Assembly (NCBI GenBank): GCA_028716845.1
Contig: JAQUPF010000017.1
Span: 1-48,361, forward strand
Source: a bacterium
GTDB lineage: Bacteria; Auribacterota; Tritonobacteria; UBA1439
DNA length: 48,361 bases
Direction of reading: 5' to 3'
This document shows positions 2,723 to 9,153 of the stretch, piece by piece. The notes beneath the pieces were generated by a model, which worked only from the letters and a program-made list of their open reading frames with translations, did no database searches and had not been told where the DNA came from. Position 1 is the stretch's first letter. Each line of letters starts with the position of its first letter. Both the position numbers and the translations under genes were made by a program.

Positions 2723-3241
2723 GTGTCCTGGTATCGGTTGCCGGTGCTGATCGCCGTCGCCGCGCTCCTCCCGGGAGCGGTTGCCCCGTCGCCGGCCGAG
2801 CCGGTGCTGACGGCCACGGGGAGGGGGCGCGCGCCGGCGCGGGCTGCGGGCGACGCCCGGGCGATGCTGATGGCGAGGCGCGCGGCGATGCTGGAGGCGT
2901 ACAAGAACCTCTCGGCGGCCCTCGGCATGGGACGATCCACGGTGCGCGGCGGGACGGGGCACGAGACCGTGAGCGGTTTCCTGCAGGGGGTCAGGGTCCT
3001 GGAGACGCGGTACTACGAGAACGGCGACGTGGAGGTCGATGTCGAGGCGCCCGTTCCCCCGGGCGGGATGACGGGGGCCACGGCCGGCGGGGCCGGCGCG
3101 CCGCGCGAGCGGCGGCTGCTCCTCGTGGAGCGAGACGGCGGTGTCGTGGACGAGTCCGAGTGGCGGGAGCTCTTCGGGGCGGCGACCGCGCCGGCCCCCG
3201 GGCGTCCCGCCGGGAGCGCGGAAGGGAGGGAGGAGCGATGA
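2723..3241 (+). CDS. LPP20-like exported protein, single domain
   Basis: A 172-aa protein with an N-terminal signal sequence (residues 1 to about 25, no convincing lipobox). One LPP20/FlgP-like domain follows at about 28-112. It has the family pattern of an Ala/Arg-rich helix (ARAMLMARRAAMLEAYKNL), then a segment ending in a beta strand of the YENGDVEVDVEAPVP type. The Pro/Ala/Gly-rich tail is probably disordered. The start is GTG 2723, chosen for GGAGGA 7 nt upstream. The stop overlaps the next ATG by 4 bp (ATGA), indicating translational coupling. LPP20-like domains occur in outer-membrane or periplasmic accessory proteins; the precise role here is unknown. It is the first gene of the operon. 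Confidence 0.8.
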   Translation: MSWYRLPVLIAVAALLPGAVAPSPAEPVLTATGRGRAPARAAGDARAMLMARRAAMLEAYKNLSAALGMGRSTVRGGTGHETVSGFLQGVRVLETRYYENGDVEVDVEAPVPPGGMTGATAGGAGAPRERRLLLVERDGGVVDESEWRELFGAATAPAPGRPAGSAEGREER

Positions 3242-4557
3242 AGAGGATGCTGCTGCGGGCGGGGGCCGTCGCGTGCGCGGCCTGTGTCGCCGCGCCGGCG
3301 ATGGCGCAGGCGCCGCTCTCGCCGGGGCAGGAGCGGCTCATGGCGAAGCGGGCCGCGCAGGTCGACGCCTACCGGAAGCTGACGGAGGAGATCAAGGGGC
3401 TCAGGATCGACTCGAACACCTTCGTCCGTGATTTCGTGGCGGAGAGCGACCAGATCAACACCGCCCTGAACGAGTTCATCAAGGGGCTCAAGGTGGACGG
3501 CCCGCCGCGCCACATGCCCGACGGCACGTGCGAGGTGGACGTGAAGGTGACGCTCCAGCAGATCATGCAGTGCCTGAAGCGGATCAACCTGGAGTACCCC
3601 GACAGGAAGCGGACGACGATGAGCTTCGACCAGATGGGGCAGTACACGAAGAAGACGGTCTTCTCGGCGACCGGCGTGGGGCTGCCCCCGGGGATGAAGT
3701 CCGAGTCGACCGCCCCGAAGGGGGCGGACCTCAGGACCGCCGGCATCCCCGGATGGGAGGGGGTGACGCCGCAGGGGAGGCTCCTCGCCGAGCGGGGCGC
3801 GCTCACCGACGCGCGCCGCAACCTCGCCGAGACGGTGCACGGGCTGCGCATCACGGGGAACACGTACGTGCGCGACTTCGCGGTGGTGAGCGACCAGGTG
3901 CAGACGAGCCTGGGCACCTTCATCAACGGCGTCAAGGAGGCGGGGCCGTACCGCTACCTGCCGGACGGCGTCTGCGAGGTCGACGTCGAGGTGACGCTCC
4001 AGGACGTCATCAAGCAGCTCAACACCATCCGGCAGCAGTACTACGCCGGGTGGCCCCCCACGCTCATCTTCCGCGAGATCCAGTTCGAGCGGATCATCGA
4101 CTGGGGCCCGCCGCGGGTCATCCGGGCGACCGGCAACGGCGCCGTCCCCGCGAGGGGCTACCTGAAGGGGGCCGCCGCCCCGGCCGCGGGGGGCGGAGCC
4201 CCGTCCGCGCCGCCGTGGTCGTCGCAGGTCGCCACGGCCACGGGAACCGGCGTGCCGAGGGAGGGCGAGGCGGGCGCCGTCGCCCGCCTGAACGCGGAGC
4301 GGGCGGCGGAGGCGGTCGCGCGGCGGAACCTCGCCGAGAAGGTCTACGGCGTGCGCATCGACGCGTCGACGACCGTGCGGGATTTCGTGACGGTGGACGA
4401 TCAGGTGAAGGCGGCGGTGGAGCGCTACCTCGCCGGCGCCCGGGTCGCGGGGGAGCCGGTCGTGATGCCCGACGGCACCGTCGAGGTCACGATGGAGCTG
4501 CCGCTCGACGGGGTGTGGCGGATCATGGCCGACGACCGGATCGCGCGGGTCGACTGA
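3238..4557 (+). CDS. Exported protein with three LPP20-like repeats
   Basis: A 439-aa protein with a clear signal peptide ending near AMAQA (residues 20-24). Three homologous modules of about 85 residues follow, roughly 30-125, 175-270 and 340-435. Each contains a helix of the RRNLAE or YRKLTE type, then xGLRIxxNTxVRDFxxxSDQ, and ends in MPDGTxEVDVxVTL. The first two modules are closest; the third is more diverged (VRDFVTVDDQ, MPDGTVEVTMELPL). Gly/Pro/Ala-rich linkers separate modules 2 and 3. The start at ATG 3238 overlaps the preceding stop. A triplicated LPP20-type protein suggests a periplasmic scaffold or ring component, but that is inference. Confidence 0.82.
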   Translation: MKRMLLRAGAVACAACVAAPAMAQAPLSPGQERLMAKRAAQVDAYRKLTEEIKGLRIDSNTFVRDFVAESDQINTALNEFIKGLKVDGPPRHMPDGTCEVDVKVTLQQIMQCLKRINLEYPDRKRTTMSFDQMGQYTKKTVFSATGVGLPPGMKSESTAPKGADLRTAGIPGWEGVTPQGRLLAERGALTDARRNLAETVHGLRITGNTYVRDFAVVSDQVQTSLGTFINGVKEAGPYRYLPDGVCEVDVEVTLQDVIKQLNTIRQQYYAGWPPTLIFREIQFERIIDWGPPRVIRATGNGAVPARGYLKGAAAPAAGGGAPSAPPWSSQVATATGTGVPREGEAGAVARLNAERAAEAVARRNLAEKVYGVRIDASTTVRDFVTVDDQVKAAVERYLAGARVAGEPVVMPDGTVEVTMELPLDGVWRIMADDRIARVD

Positions 4558-4592
4558 CCCCGCGGGGCCGTCGGGAGAGGAGGGACGAGGGG

Positions 4593-4742
4593 ATGAGGCG
4601 TCTGTTCGGATGGTGCGCGGTGGCGGCGGCCGTCGGCGCGGTGCTCGCGGCCGGCGGGTGCACGAAGCGGTACATCCCGAGGGTGACGGAGGAGATCATC
4701 GATCCGGGCGTCCCCGTCTACTCCGAGACGATCGTCGAGTGA
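4593..4742 (+). CDS. Very small putative lipoprotein (49 aa)
   Basis: It is preceded by a purine-rich ribosome-binding region (GGGAGAGGAGGG). The hydrophobic leader ends in LAAGGC-TKRYIPRV, so the mature lipoprotein would be only about 27 residues (Cys23 onward). The lipobox is weak at -3 (Ala). The mature part is charged and has no recognisable domain. It lies in line with two further small lipoprotein genes, with a similar Cys-X-K/R-X-Tyr/Ile start after the leader, as in the next gene (GC-RKVYMV). No function can be assigned. Confidence 0.6.
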   Translation: MRRLFGWCAVAAAVGAVLAAGGCTKRYIPRVTEEIIDPGVPVYSETIVE

Positions 4743-4784
4743 GGCGGGCGGCCGCCCGGGGGGCGCGCCGGAGAGGAGGGCGAC

Positions 4785-4961
4785 ATGGCGGGGAAGGTGA
4801 TCGCGATCGTGGCGGCCTGCGCCGCGGCGGCGGCGTTCGCCGGCTGCAGGAAGGTGTACATGGTCCCGACGCCGCAGGGCTGGATGGAGATGGAGTCCAG
4901 GAAGGGCGGCGACGAGCTCAAGTTCAGGCCGGCGGAGAAGGTCGAGATGCAGGTGAGATGA
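4785..4961 (+). CDS. Small putative lipoprotein (58 aa)
   Basis: The ATG at 4785 follows GAGAGGAGGG. The leader AAAAFAGC leads to Cys21, giving a mature peptide of about 38 residues beginning CRKVYMVPTPQGW. The mature part is rich in Met, Glu and Lys and has no known domain. The third codon positions are almost all G or C, like the neighbouring genes, which supports real coding despite the length. It ends 13 bp before the next start. The resemblance of its mature N-terminus to the preceding gene (charged residue, then Y-hydrophobic-P) may reflect a common origin. Confidence 0.62.
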   Translation: MAGKVIAIVAACAAAAAFAGCRKVYMVPTPQGWMEMESRKGGDELKFRPAEKVEMQVR

Positions 4962-4974
4962 GGAGGGGGAACTG

Positions 4975-5313
4975 ATGCGCACAACAGTCGCGGCGCTCGG
5001 GGGGGTGCTGATCGTCGGGCTCCTCGCCGCCGGGTGCAGCAGGGACATCATGTACGGCCCGCGCGGCGAGGTGGTGAAGATGAAATCGCCCGACCGGACG
5101 ATGAAGGTCAAGGTGAAGGGCGAGACGGTGCAGATAGAGGGGGCGAAGGGCATCGGGGGCCGCTCCCGCGTCGCGCCGCTCCCGGTCGAGACGGAGCGCG
5201 ACGTCGGCATCCGGGGCGTCCCCGTCCCGCCGCCGGCGGGGCACATCGTCCCGGCGCCGGCCGCCCCGGTGGAGTCGCGGACGGTCACGGAGGAGACGAC
5301 GGTCGTCCGCTGA
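4975..5313 (+). CDS. Putative lipoprotein (112 aa)
   Basis: The signal sequence carries the lipobox LLAAGC (Cys21). A region that begins SRDIMYGPRGEVVKMKSP follows, then basic beta-like stretches, and a Pro/Ala-rich C-terminal third ending in Thr/Val residues. The mature start (MYGPRGE) resembles the preceding small lipoprotein (YMVPTPQG), so the three small lipoproteins may be related. RBS GGAGGGGG. The product is likely anchored in the outer or inner membrane. No family recognised. Confidence 0.75.
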   Translation: MRTTVAALGGVLIVGLLAAGCSRDIMYGPRGEVVKMKSPDRTMKVKVKGETVQIEGAKGIGGRSRVAPLPVETERDVGIRGVPVPPPAGHIVPAPAAPVESRTVTEETTVVR

Positions 5314-5339
5314 GCGGCCGCGGGGAGGGAACGGGTGCG

Positions 5340-6188
5340 ATGAGACCGACGGGGTGGTGTGTCGCCCTCGCCGCCGCGCTCCTCTTCGGCGCGGCCGCCG
5401 CCGCGGCGGGCGGGCGGGAGGTGACCGCGCGCGGCGAGGCGGCGGTCAGGGGCGAGGGGGCCGAGGCGCTCCTCCTCGCCCGCGAGGAGGCGGTCAACCG
5501 GGCGCTCCGGCGCGCCATCGAGCAGGGGGTCGGCACGGTCATCGACTCCGAGACGCTCGTGGAGAACTTCCAGCTCCTCGACGACAAGGTCCTCTCCCAG
5601 GTGAAGGGGTACGTCACCGGCTTCGAGGTGACGGACGACAACGGGGGCGAGGGGGGCGTCTACGGCGTGACCGTGCGGGCGACGGTCGCCATGGCGCGCC
5701 TCGAGAAGGACGTCCGCGCCCTCAACATCATCAGGGAGAAGAAGCGGAACCCGCGGATCATGGTGATGATCCGGGAGTACTTCGAGGACCCGGTCTTCGG
5801 GGCGGACTTCGCCAAGGCCGGCGAGGTCGTCCAGTCCGCGGTCGAGAAGGAGTTCCTCCGGCTCTCCTTCCCCCTCGTGGACAGGGGGCAGACGGAGGCG
5901 ATCGCCGCGCGCGACGAGGCGGTCGCCTTCGACGACCCCGCCCGGGCCGCCGCCCTCGGGAGGCGGTTCGGGGCGGAGATCGTCATCGTGGGGGAGGCGA
6001 CGAGCGCCCAGATGGACCGGAGCGCGCCGCACGGCGTCGCGGTCTTCCACTGCGACGCCCAGGTGTCGGCGAAGGCGGTGAAGACCGACACGGGGCAGAT
6101 CATCGCGCGGGAGAGCGTCAACTCGGGGCGGGTGGTGCGGGGGGGGCGGGCGACCGCGGCGAAGGAGGCCCTCGGGATCGCCGGCTAG
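5340..6188 (+). CDS. FlgT-like exported protein, N-terminal part, ended by in-frame amber codon
   Basis: 282 residues: a signal peptide (about 1-23), then a FlgT-N/LPP20-like domain at about 25-115 (AREEAVNRALRRAIEQGVG, LVENFQLLDDKVLS, KGYVTGFEV). A second domain at about 130-270 has a TolB/FlgO-like pattern, including RFGAEIVIVGEA and a conserved SAKAVKTDTGQIIA. The frame stops at TAG 6186-6188 but continues in the same phase for another 120 codons of fully native codon usage to 6548. I therefore read this as one gene of about 402 codons interrupted by a nonsense codon. FlgT/FlgO-type proteins sit in the periplasm or outer membrane; with no flagellar genes nearby, a non-flagellar role is likely. 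Confidence 0.75.
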   Translation: MRPTGWCVALAAALLFGAAAAAAGGREVTARGEAAVRGEGAEALLLAREEAVNRALRRAIEQGVGTVIDSETLVENFQLLDDKVLSQVKGYVTGFEVTDDNGGEGGVYGVTVRATVAMARLEKDVRALNIIREKKRNPRIMVMIREYFEDPVFGADFAKAGEVVQSAVEKEFLRLSFPLVDRGQTEAIAARDEAVAFDDPARAAALGRRFGAEIVIVGEATSAQMDRSAPHGVAVFHCDAQVSAKAVKTDTGQIIARESVNSGRVVRGGRATAAKEALGIAG

Positions 6189-6548
6189 CGGCTCGCGCTC
6201 GCGATGCGCGACGGGATACTGGAGAGCTGGCGGAGCGAGACGTTCAACACCGTCGCGGTGCAGGTCGTCGCCGCGGAGGCGACGAACGAGCGCCGGCGCG
6301 CCCTCCGGGAGGATCTCGCGTCCATCCGCGGCGTCCGGAACGTCACCGAGCGGAGCTGGACGAACCGGGTGCTCGAGCTCGACCTCGAGATCGACGGGGC
6401 GCTCTGGGGGGATTTCGACCGCCGGATGGAGGAACTCCCCGGCGTGGGCGTGGAGCTCACCGGCAGGACGGGGAACCGCATCGACCTCCGGCTCTCGGAC
6501 AAGGCCGGGCCCGCGGAGGAGGCGGGAACGGGAGGAAGGAAGAGATGA
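6189..6548 (+). pseudogene. C-terminal continuation of the FlgT-like gene beyond the amber codon
   Basis: The same reading frame as the gene before it resumes directly after TAG 6186-6188 (RLALAMRDGILESW...). Its first ATG is at 6204, giving 114 residues if translated separately. No Shine-Dalgarno sequence precedes that ATG, and the protein would lack a signal peptide. G/C-ending codons remain dominant. Its stop overlaps the next start as ATGA, as for an intact operon gene. A single-base change (for example GAG to TAG) explains the break best; readthrough or a sequencing error are alternatives. TAG is an ordinary stop elsewhere in this window (ftsA, ftsL and the receiver gene). Confidence 0.6.
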
Positions 6549-7861
6549 AGGACACCTTCGGTGTGCGCGCGATCGCCGCCGCGGCGGCGCTCGCGATCAT
6601 GGCGGGGACGGCCTCCGCGCAGAAGTGCAGGATCAACAAGGAGATGCTCACCTTCACCCCGATGAGCAACATCGGGCAGTACGTCATCGCCGGCACGCCG
6701 GGGAGCGTGACCGGCGCGCATCCGATCAGGCTCATCGCCCTCGACAGGGACACCGCCGAGAAGGCGGAGGCGGCGGTCAACCCTGACGGCAGCTTCTCCG
6801 TCACCGTGGACGCCACCCAGGGGGACAAGATCAAGCTCACCGCCTTCGATTCCGCCGGCGGCAAGAAGAGCGCCTCGGTGCGGATCCCCATCATGCAGCA
6901 GCGCTCGCTCCTCGACGGGGAGCAGAAAACGGTGGACCGCCGGGGCGAGACGCCCGGCGGCCCCGCCGCGCCGGCGGTCGCCGCCGGCCTCCCCGAGGGC
7001 GCGCCGCCGCCGGGGCCGCGCAATTTGCGGAAGATCGTCGCCGTCGCGAAGTTCGACAACAAGGCGAACGTCGCCTCGCGTTTCGATCTCGGCACCGGGA
7101 TGCAGGCGCAGCTCATCAACGCGCTCAAGCGCAGCGACCGCTTCGTCGTCCGGGAGCAGGAGCTCCTGCGGGACGTCTTCGGCGAGCAGGACCTCGCCCA
7201 GAGCGGCCGGATGGCGGAGAGCCGGACGGCGGAGATCGGGAAGGCGCTCACCGCCCAGTACCTCGTCCGCGGCACGGTGACCGAGTTCGACGAGGCGGAA
7301 TTCTCCGACAGCAAGGGCTTCAGCATGTACGGGGTCGGCGTGAAGGGCGGCAAGTCCCGCGCCCACATGGCGGTGGTCATCGACCTCATCGACACGACCT
7401 CGGGCACCGTCATCGCCTCGCAGCGGATGGAGGGGAAGGCGGAGGGGCGCGGCGCCGGGGGCGGCCTTTCGGTTCCCCATGTCTCCGGGGGCCGGATCGA
7501 GCACGGCAAGCAGAAGCACACGCCGGTCAACAAGGCGATGCAGGTGTGCATCGACAACACGGTCTACTTCATCATGCAGGAGCTTGACCGGCAGCCGTGG
7601 AGCTCGGCGATCGTGAAGGCGGACGGCGAGGGCCCGATCGTCATCCGGGGCGGCACGGAGGACGGCATGGAGCCGGGCTACCGGTTCGGCGTGTACCGGC
7701 GGGGCGAGGATCTCCGGGACCCGACGACCGGCGAGCTCCTCGACGTGGAGCGGAAGAAGCTGGGGGCCATCGAGGTGACGCAGGTGCGGGAGAAGATCGC
7801 CTTCGCTACCCCCGTCGTCGGCTCGGGGTTCCAGGCCGGCGACCTCGTCATGCCCGAATGA
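6545..7861 (+). CDS. CsgG-family protein with extra N-terminal beta domain and FlgT-C-like tail
   Basis: A 438-aa protein with a signal peptide ending near TASAQ (residue 25); there is no lipobox, unlike classical CsgG. Residues about 40-120 form a domain also found in the protein encoded at 8653-9153 (GTPGSVTG, NPDGSFSV, KLTAFDSAGGK). A Pro/Ala-rich linker follows. The CsgG domain (about 160-345) includes IVAVAKFDNKA, GTGMQAQLINALKRSDRF and LVRGTVTEFDEAEF. The C-terminal part (about 365-438) resembles FlgT-C (IVIRGG, DGMEPGYRFGVYRRGE, DPTTGELLDVE). CsgG forms the outer-membrane curli export pore; many CsgG-like proteins serve other envelope functions. It is the last gene of the operon and starts within the previous stop. 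Confidence 0.85.
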   Translation: MKDTFGVRAIAAAAALAIMAGTASAQKCRINKEMLTFTPMSNIGQYVIAGTPGSVTGAHPIRLIALDRDTAEKAEAAVNPDGSFSVTVDATQGDKIKLTAFDSAGGKKSASVRIPIMQQRSLLDGEQKTVDRRGETPGGPAAPAVAAGLPEGAPPPGPRNLRKIVAVAKFDNKANVASRFDLGTGMQAQLINALKRSDRFVVREQELLRDVFGEQDLAQSGRMAESRTAEIGKALTAQYLVRGTVTEFDEAEFSDSKGFSMYGVGVKGGKSRAHMAVVIDLIDTTSGTVIASQRMEGKAEGRGAGGGLSVPHVSGGRIEHGKQKHTPVNKAMQVCIDNTVYFIMQELDRQPWSSAIVKADGEGPIVIRGGTEDGMEPGYRFGVYRRGEDLRDPTTGELLDVERKKLGAIEVTQVREKIAFATPVVGSGFQAGDLVMPE

Positions 7862-8652: not shown

Positions 8653-9153
8653 TCACTCGATGACGCCGGCCGCGCCGAGTTCCGCCTCGCCGCGGATGAT
8701 CAGTTCGTCGCCCGCCGTCGGCGGTGCGTACGGCGGCGCGGCGGGGACGCCCGACGGGACCGTCAATGTCTCGGTCCGGAGTTCGGTGCGGACGGGCGCC
8801 GGGAAGGAGAGGACGGCCTCGGGGACCTTCACCTTGACGTCCTTCTTCCTGCCGTCCGCCCCGATGAAGGTGAGCTTGAGCGTGTCCTTCGGCCGCGCCG
8901 GGATGAGCACCTGGAAGCTCCCGTCGGCGGCGACCGCCCCCGCAACCGTCAGGTCGGACTTCCTGTTCCGCGCGACGACCTGCATCGGCTGAAGGCCCGT
9001 GACGCATCCCGGCGGGCCGGAGACCGCGATCGTCCCCTGCAGGTCGGCGGGGGCGACGGCGATCGCGTGCCGGTTCACCTTCACGCTGATTCCTCCCGCC
9101 GCCGCCTCGCCGGCGAGGACGAGGATCGAGAGCGCGAGCGCGAGCCGCTTCAT
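8653..9153 (-). CDS. Secreted protein sharing the N-terminal domain of the CsgG-like protein
   Basis: 166 aa with a signal peptide (MKRLALALSILVLAGEAAAG). A domain at about residues 35-115 aligns with residues 40-120 of the CsgG-like protein: GPPGCVTGLQP, ARNRKSDL, AADGSFQVLIP, LKLTFIGADGRKK. The Pro-rich C-terminal part is acidic at the end. I start at ATG 9151-9153, preceded by AGGAGGTG at 8-nt spacing. The frame stays open upstream to ATG 9309, adding 52 residues with a transmembrane segment and equally biased codons, and the predicted promoter lies before that. The longer form is therefore possible. Function unknown, but the shared domain suggests a partner of the CsgG operon. Confidence 0.72.
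   Translation of the reverse strand: MKRLALALSILVLAGEAAAGGISVKVNRHAIAVAPADLQGTIAVSGPPGCVTGLQPMQVVARNRKSDLTVAGAVAADGSFQVLIPARPKDTLKLTFIGADGRKKDVKVKVPEAVLSFPAPVRTELRTETLTVPSGVPAAPPYAPPTAGDELIIRGEAELGAAGVIE

Follow-up and report, generated by a model that had tools for sequence, protein, structure and literature searches.

What purpose could a compact set of FlgP-, FlgT- and CsgG-like exported proteins serve in a bacterium whose genome encodes neither flagellin nor curlin repeats? This question is raised by positions 2723-7861 of contig JAQUPF010000017.1 (assembly GCA_028716845.1, Candidatus Auribacterota), which is contig 17 of a metagenome-assembled genome (2.68 Mb, 95% complete) and whose 48,361 nucleotides are termed the window here. 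To our knowledge, FlgP, FlgT and CsgG have been studied almost solely in flagella and curli. The reading that we favor, with a probability of roughly 55%, is that the seven genes of this region, designated A to G, encode a sigma-54-switched, flagellum-independent outer-membrane collar, in which parts related to the flagellar H-ring (FlgO/FlgP/FlgT) are joined to a CsgG-type component. New here are a conserved sigma-54 promoter sequence and a divergent sigma-54 activator gene (designated M), both of which lie just outside 2723-7861 and belong to the operon unit.

Regarding the kinship to ring proteins, Pfam alone names little in the cluster (A, the small lipoproteins and F of the window have no matches above the cut-off), and profiles built from relatives were needed. 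Genes A (2723-3241, + strand, GTG start) and B (3238-4557, +) both encode exported proteins; that of A has a single FlgP/LPP20-type (SHS2) domain and that of B has three (Pfam LPP20, 8.6e-12). The homologues of A, which are found at the same place in relatives, are recognized by a profile built from the B domains, indicating that A belongs to the same domain family. The B profile matches five distinct FlgP-type PDB sequences, of which C. jejuni FlgP (9hmf) is the best at 2.5e-11; Vibrio FlgP (8z5n) is matched at 5.9e-8. The alignment to FlgP runs through the insertion between the helix and the second strand. This insertion correlates with ring formation in the FlgP/FlgT family (PMC12222027). 

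Gene F (5340-6548, +) encodes an FlgT_N-like domain, a TolB_N/CsgG-like domain and an extra alpha/beta domain, and FlgT_N is matched by 35 of 44 F homologues. A model of F, for which the intact gene of a close relative was used (predicted local distance difference test score, pLDDT, 85), has FlgT of the LPHT ring as its top Foldseek match (8z5n_0, 4.1e-11), and its middle domain is matched by TolB, PelC, CsgG and FlgT, which are tied at Z 10-11 in VIA-align. DUF2066 was rejected as an assignment for F, being a sub-threshold match of single members. Gene G (6545-7861, +) encodes an Ig-like domain, a CsgG domain (Pfam, 3.9e-31) and an FlgT_C-like tail; its homologues carry CsgG in 30 of 30 cases and FlgT_C in 19 of 30. 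Matches to FlgO are weak in both families (4 of 30 G homologues and 3 of 44 F homologues). For the model of G (pLDDT 76), LPHT-ring FlgT scores highest, with Z 18.9 across 260 residues; the crystal structure of FlgT reaches Z 15.5 and CsgG Z 14.3. Taken together, profiles and folds group B with FlgP, and they group F and G with the FlgT protein of the Vibrio LPHT ring, G being CsgG-like as well.

The CsgG domain of G brings in the main rival explanation, in which G functions as a genuine secretion channel of the CsgG type in the outer membrane, with A, B, F and the lipoproteins as its gate, chaperones or small substrates. The G profile aligns ungapped to E. coli CsgG through the first membrane hairpin, and an alternating aromatic stretch in the second hairpin (e.g., GLGFGYAASDFDFF) is kept in Auribacterota homologues. 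A small exported Tyr-rich protein, which stands first in the operon of some relatives, would suit such a channel too. However, the second hairpin of the window G is weakly hydrophobic and modeled with low confidence, both hairpins are shortened in deltaproteobacterial homologues, and the best full-length fold match of G is FlgT instead of CsgG. In addition, G has no lipobox (its signal peptide, read from the sequence, ends in ...GTASAQKC) and the window genome contains no curlin repeats. A secretion channel is the less probable reading, although it is the strongest competitor of the collar.

The separation from flagella and curli was addressed by comparison with 43 relatives. FlgH was found in 6 and flagellin in 7 of these genomes, and neither was found in the window genome. 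F is present in 20 of the 43 relatives (in one case as a contig-end fragment only), and 14 of the 20 F-positive genomes, including the window genome, have neither FlgH nor flagellin. In the six FlgH-positive genomes, FlgH and the F cluster lie on separate contigs; linkage of the cluster to flagellar or curli genes was looked for among the relatives and none was found. In a second small phylum, all four genomes carry F and none of the four carries FlgH; these genomes are 63-85% complete. Curlin repeats (PF07012) are absent from the window genome and positive in 1 of the 43 relatives. CsgE and CsgF were not found in the cluster by Pfam, no genome-wide search having been made for them. The statement of the preliminary description that there are no curli subunits or flagellar genes here can thus be extended to the genome for curlin repeats, FlgH and flagellin. 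Of the separate ring or pore system that it proposed, the separateness is supported, as is the kinship to ring proteins by sequence and fold, and an assembled ring, a pore and a cargo are hypothetical.

The second line of evidence is the regulation of the operon. Gene M (784-2349, - strand), which is divergent from the operon, encodes GAF, sigma-54 activator AAA+ and Fis-type helix-turn-helix domains (Pfam GAF_2, 1.6e-17; Sigma54_activat, 3.6e-68; HTH_8, 5.5e-12) and carries the GAFTGA motif. A textbook -24/-12 site, CGGCATCGAAGTTGCT (2672-2687, +; spaced CGGCAT-CGAAG-TTGCT), begins 51 nucleotides upstream of the start codon of A and is the sole match to the pattern on either strand of the window. 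In 12 of the 13 Auribacterota loci that have the genes in A-B-F order, the same pattern precedes the operon, the chance expectation being approximately 0.1 over all 16 loci tested. The strict pattern was fixed after a trial with a looser promoter score, which had produced many chance matches, and these statistics are therefore post hoc; they are tempered by a genome-wide count, in which a stricter form of the pattern occurs five times in the 2.68-Mb genome. The other four of these sites revealed no shared function. Eight relatives have a full-length M homologue in the same divergent position, and three of the 12 loci (G006, G011 and G025) have the site and no neighboring activator; the contig of G018 stops too soon to show whether one is there. 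RpoN is present in the window genome. The H-ring genes of Vibrio are also sigma-54/FlrC-dependent (PMC6504787). The best reading is that the operon is under a sigma-54 switch, with expression from the 2672 site suggested by the conserved predicted promoter and the activator gene. Another sigma-54 site lies behind an NtrC-type regulator at L173 316-8418 (contig 1 of G000), where a receiver-domain protein, a PPC-domain protein and a large C25-family peptidase with TSP3 repeats are found downstream.

The tight arrangement of the genes and their conservation complete the description of the operon. Three lipoprotein genes on the + strand are located between B and F: C (4593-4742; 49 amino acids; mature CTKRYIP...SETIVE; tblastn matches in family members down to 1.5e-16), D (4785-4961; 58 amino acids; mature CRKVYMVP; 2e-10 to 2e-14 in four family members) and E (4975-5313; 112 amino acids; mature CSRDIMYGP; 2e-26 to 2e-37 in four family members). 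Lipoboxes can be read in C, D and E, and none in A, B, F or G. Overlaps of 4 nucleotides (ATGA) at A/B and F/G and gaps of 13-42 nucleotides elsewhere lead us to expect A-G on one transcript. All of the products, including those of 49 and 58 amino acids, are matched by tblastn in family members with the gene order preserved, and A-G are real genes. The preliminary description was right about seven tightly coupled genes, two LPP20-like proteins of one and three domains, three lipoproteins of 49-112 amino acids, an FlgT-like F and a CsgG-like G with an FlgT-C-like tail, and the alike mature N-termini that it reported for the lipoproteins proved real on comparison. It overlooked the stop codon within F and the sigma-54 control.

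Conservation outside this genome, on which that description had made its proposal depend, was found at two levels. The seven-gene order, small lipoproteins included, is kept in all family members whose contigs span the genes. Across Candidatus Auribacterota, the order varies as A, B, one to three tiny lipoproteins (approximately 41-80 amino acids), F and then one or two copies of G; B or the tiny lipoproteins are missing in some lineages. These tiny lipoproteins have mature starts such as CTYNEHYY and CTEKYVV, and a C-terminal VVE is frequent. The Tyr-rich exported protein (105-133 amino acids), which is absent from the window, is encoded first in the operon at L110 6440-6835 and also at L108, L109, L074 and L076, and is possibly a surface component or cargo. 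In some relatives, the operon converges with a gene for a FecR-LPP20 fusion (L094 7310-8740, -; L103 14987-16354, -); such fusions also occur elsewhere in the window genome, and FecR genes adjoin F in other phyla. Within the window, 8656-9153 (-) encodes a small exported protein with an Ig-like domain related to the N-terminal domain of G, and same-family genomes hold several paralogues of it.

F also occurs beyond the phylum, namely in KSB1, Deltaproteobacteria, Nitrospirota, WOR-3, Fermentibacteria, Fibrobacteres and Spirochaetes, and in several of these other phyla it recurs with CsgG, LPP20, TPR/SLH or GNA1162-type genes. Among 138 same-strand neighbors of F, the families include CsgG (25), TPR_2 (19), LpoB (13), LPP20 (12), SLH (11), GNA1162-like (9), FecR (8) and FlgT_C (6), and the 25 commonest families contain no flagellar or curli family beyond the shared CsgG/LPP20/FlgT_C-type domains. 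The GNA1162-like genes and SLH/TPR proteins that adjoin F, as well as the finding that 24 of 30 G homologues match LpoB in Pfam, would fit a regulator of peptidoglycan synthesis of the LpoB/GNA1162 type, which reaches from the outer membrane to the cell wall. We regard this as improbable, as the LpoB matches are weak and accounted for by the common fold, and no penicillin-binding-protein family is among the common neighbors of F. A further explanation, to which we give a similarly low weight, is that the operon provides a TsaP-like collar accessory to a different trans-envelope machine, for example a type IV pilus or a type II secretin. In sequence, the G tail comes nearest to the FlgT_C domain of TsaP; 42 of 43 relatives have secretins, and pilT adjoins F in Geobacteraceae. 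Nevertheless, Pfam detects no LysM domain in G, Auribacterota clusters have no adjoining pilus or secretin gene, and secretins are equally present in cluster-negative genomes; neither secretins nor LptD show any pattern with the cluster across the relatives. In the Geobacteraceae loci (e.g., L148 8965-14390), F lies between pilT and alaS and is accompanied by a TPR-CsgG lipoprotein (weakly TraC-like) and a CsgG-fn3 protein.

The F gene of the window itself is interrupted. It is open over 5340-6185, followed by TAG (6186-6188) and then by the same frame on to 6548. Full-length relatives (34-69% identity) are uninterrupted across this codon, at which the alignment column is mostly Glu. On both sides of the TAG, identity to family members is still approximately 66-77%, so that the stop seems to be of recent origin or an assembly error, the candidates being a nonsense mutation, a strain polymorphism or an error of assembly. 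The C-terminal domain could be translated anew from an ATG at 6204. Reassignment of TAG was rejected in view of the mostly-Glu column and because other conserved genes were found in the genome without internal stops.

For the working of the favored outer-membrane collar, the following scheme may be proposed. The GAF-AAA+ regulator M would sense a signal and turn on the promoter at 2672; starvation and envelope stress are typical signals for such regulators. A and B, with their SHS2 domains and the ring-linked insertion, would polymerize on the inner face of the outer membrane, and the tiny lipoproteins would supply acyl anchors. F (FlgT_N and TolB_N/CsgG-like core) and G (CsgG core and FlgT_C) would then build a collar or ring with the A-B lattice. 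Such a complex would most likely stiffen or organize an outer-membrane site, and in some species G with hairpins of CsgG length may frame a pore.

Several points weigh against this collar. F is present in all six FlgH-positive genomes (Fisher p 0.006, confounded by lineage), and the cluster may have a flagellar role in those species. The F of the window genome is interrupted, and the ring itself is a proposal drawn from genes and from models of G and of an F relative. FlgP of Vibrio has a lipobox, whereas A, B and F do not. The CsgG core of G fits a secretion pore equally, and folds of the TolB_N/CsgG/LpoB type occur in many unrelated envelope proteins. A broader reading, which we put forward tentatively and below the collar itself, is that the operon represents a widespread and undescribed envelope machine of several phyla, an autonomous sigma-54-switched outer-membrane ring or pore of FlgP/FlgT/CsgG parts and tiny acyl-anchored lipoproteins, of which the flagellar H-ring is perhaps a specialized branch.

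Auribacterota is a poorly known phylum, and its ring kit, kept in species without flagellum or curli, probably has a different and so far unstudied role at the cell surface. A conserved and regulated FlgP/FlgT/CsgG set in non-flagellates suggests that a different envelope structure is served, which may have been the first role of these proteins. The operon provides a concrete gene set for testing a non-flagellar role, and the promoter and dedicated activator provide a handle on the timing of production. In the open-access literature, no paper was found on FlgT with CsgG, on LPP20 with CsgG and FlgT, or on the CsgG family with LPP20, and a search for GNA1162 with CsgG returned unrelated vaccine work only.

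Compared with known systems, F and G share their core fold with the GNA1162/LpoB/TolB_N/PelC outer-membrane proteins, and a GNA1162-like gene adjoins F and G in other phyla; F and G differ from those proteins in their larger size, their several domains and the absence of lipidation, and the window cluster has no GNA1162-like gene. An F homologue gives a weak near-full-length match to LipL46 of Leptospira (NCBIfam NF033164, 1.8e-5), which is far below the cut-off, so that membership is not claimed; LipL46 is an annotated lipoprotein, whereas F has no lipobox. TsaP combines LysM with FlgT_C, and G has the FlgT_C-like tail without LysM. The CsgG curli channel shares with G the CsgG domain and, in Auribacterota, hairpin regions of CsgG length (those of the window G having low model confidence), in contrast to the missing curlin repeats and lipobox and the extra Ig-like and FlgT_C domains. 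The flagellar H-ring (the Vibrio LPHT ring and the Campylobacter FlgP basal disk) has in common with the operon the FlgP-type SHS2 domains with insertion, the FlgT_N, FlgT_M-like and FlgT_C domains, and sigma-54 control. Unlike the H-ring, the operon occurs in a genome without a flagellum, splits the FlgT domains between F (FlgT_N-like) and G (FlgT_C), each with its own TolB_N/CsgG-like core, has triplicated FlgP-type domains that are not lipidated, and adds tiny lipoproteins and its own divergent activator.

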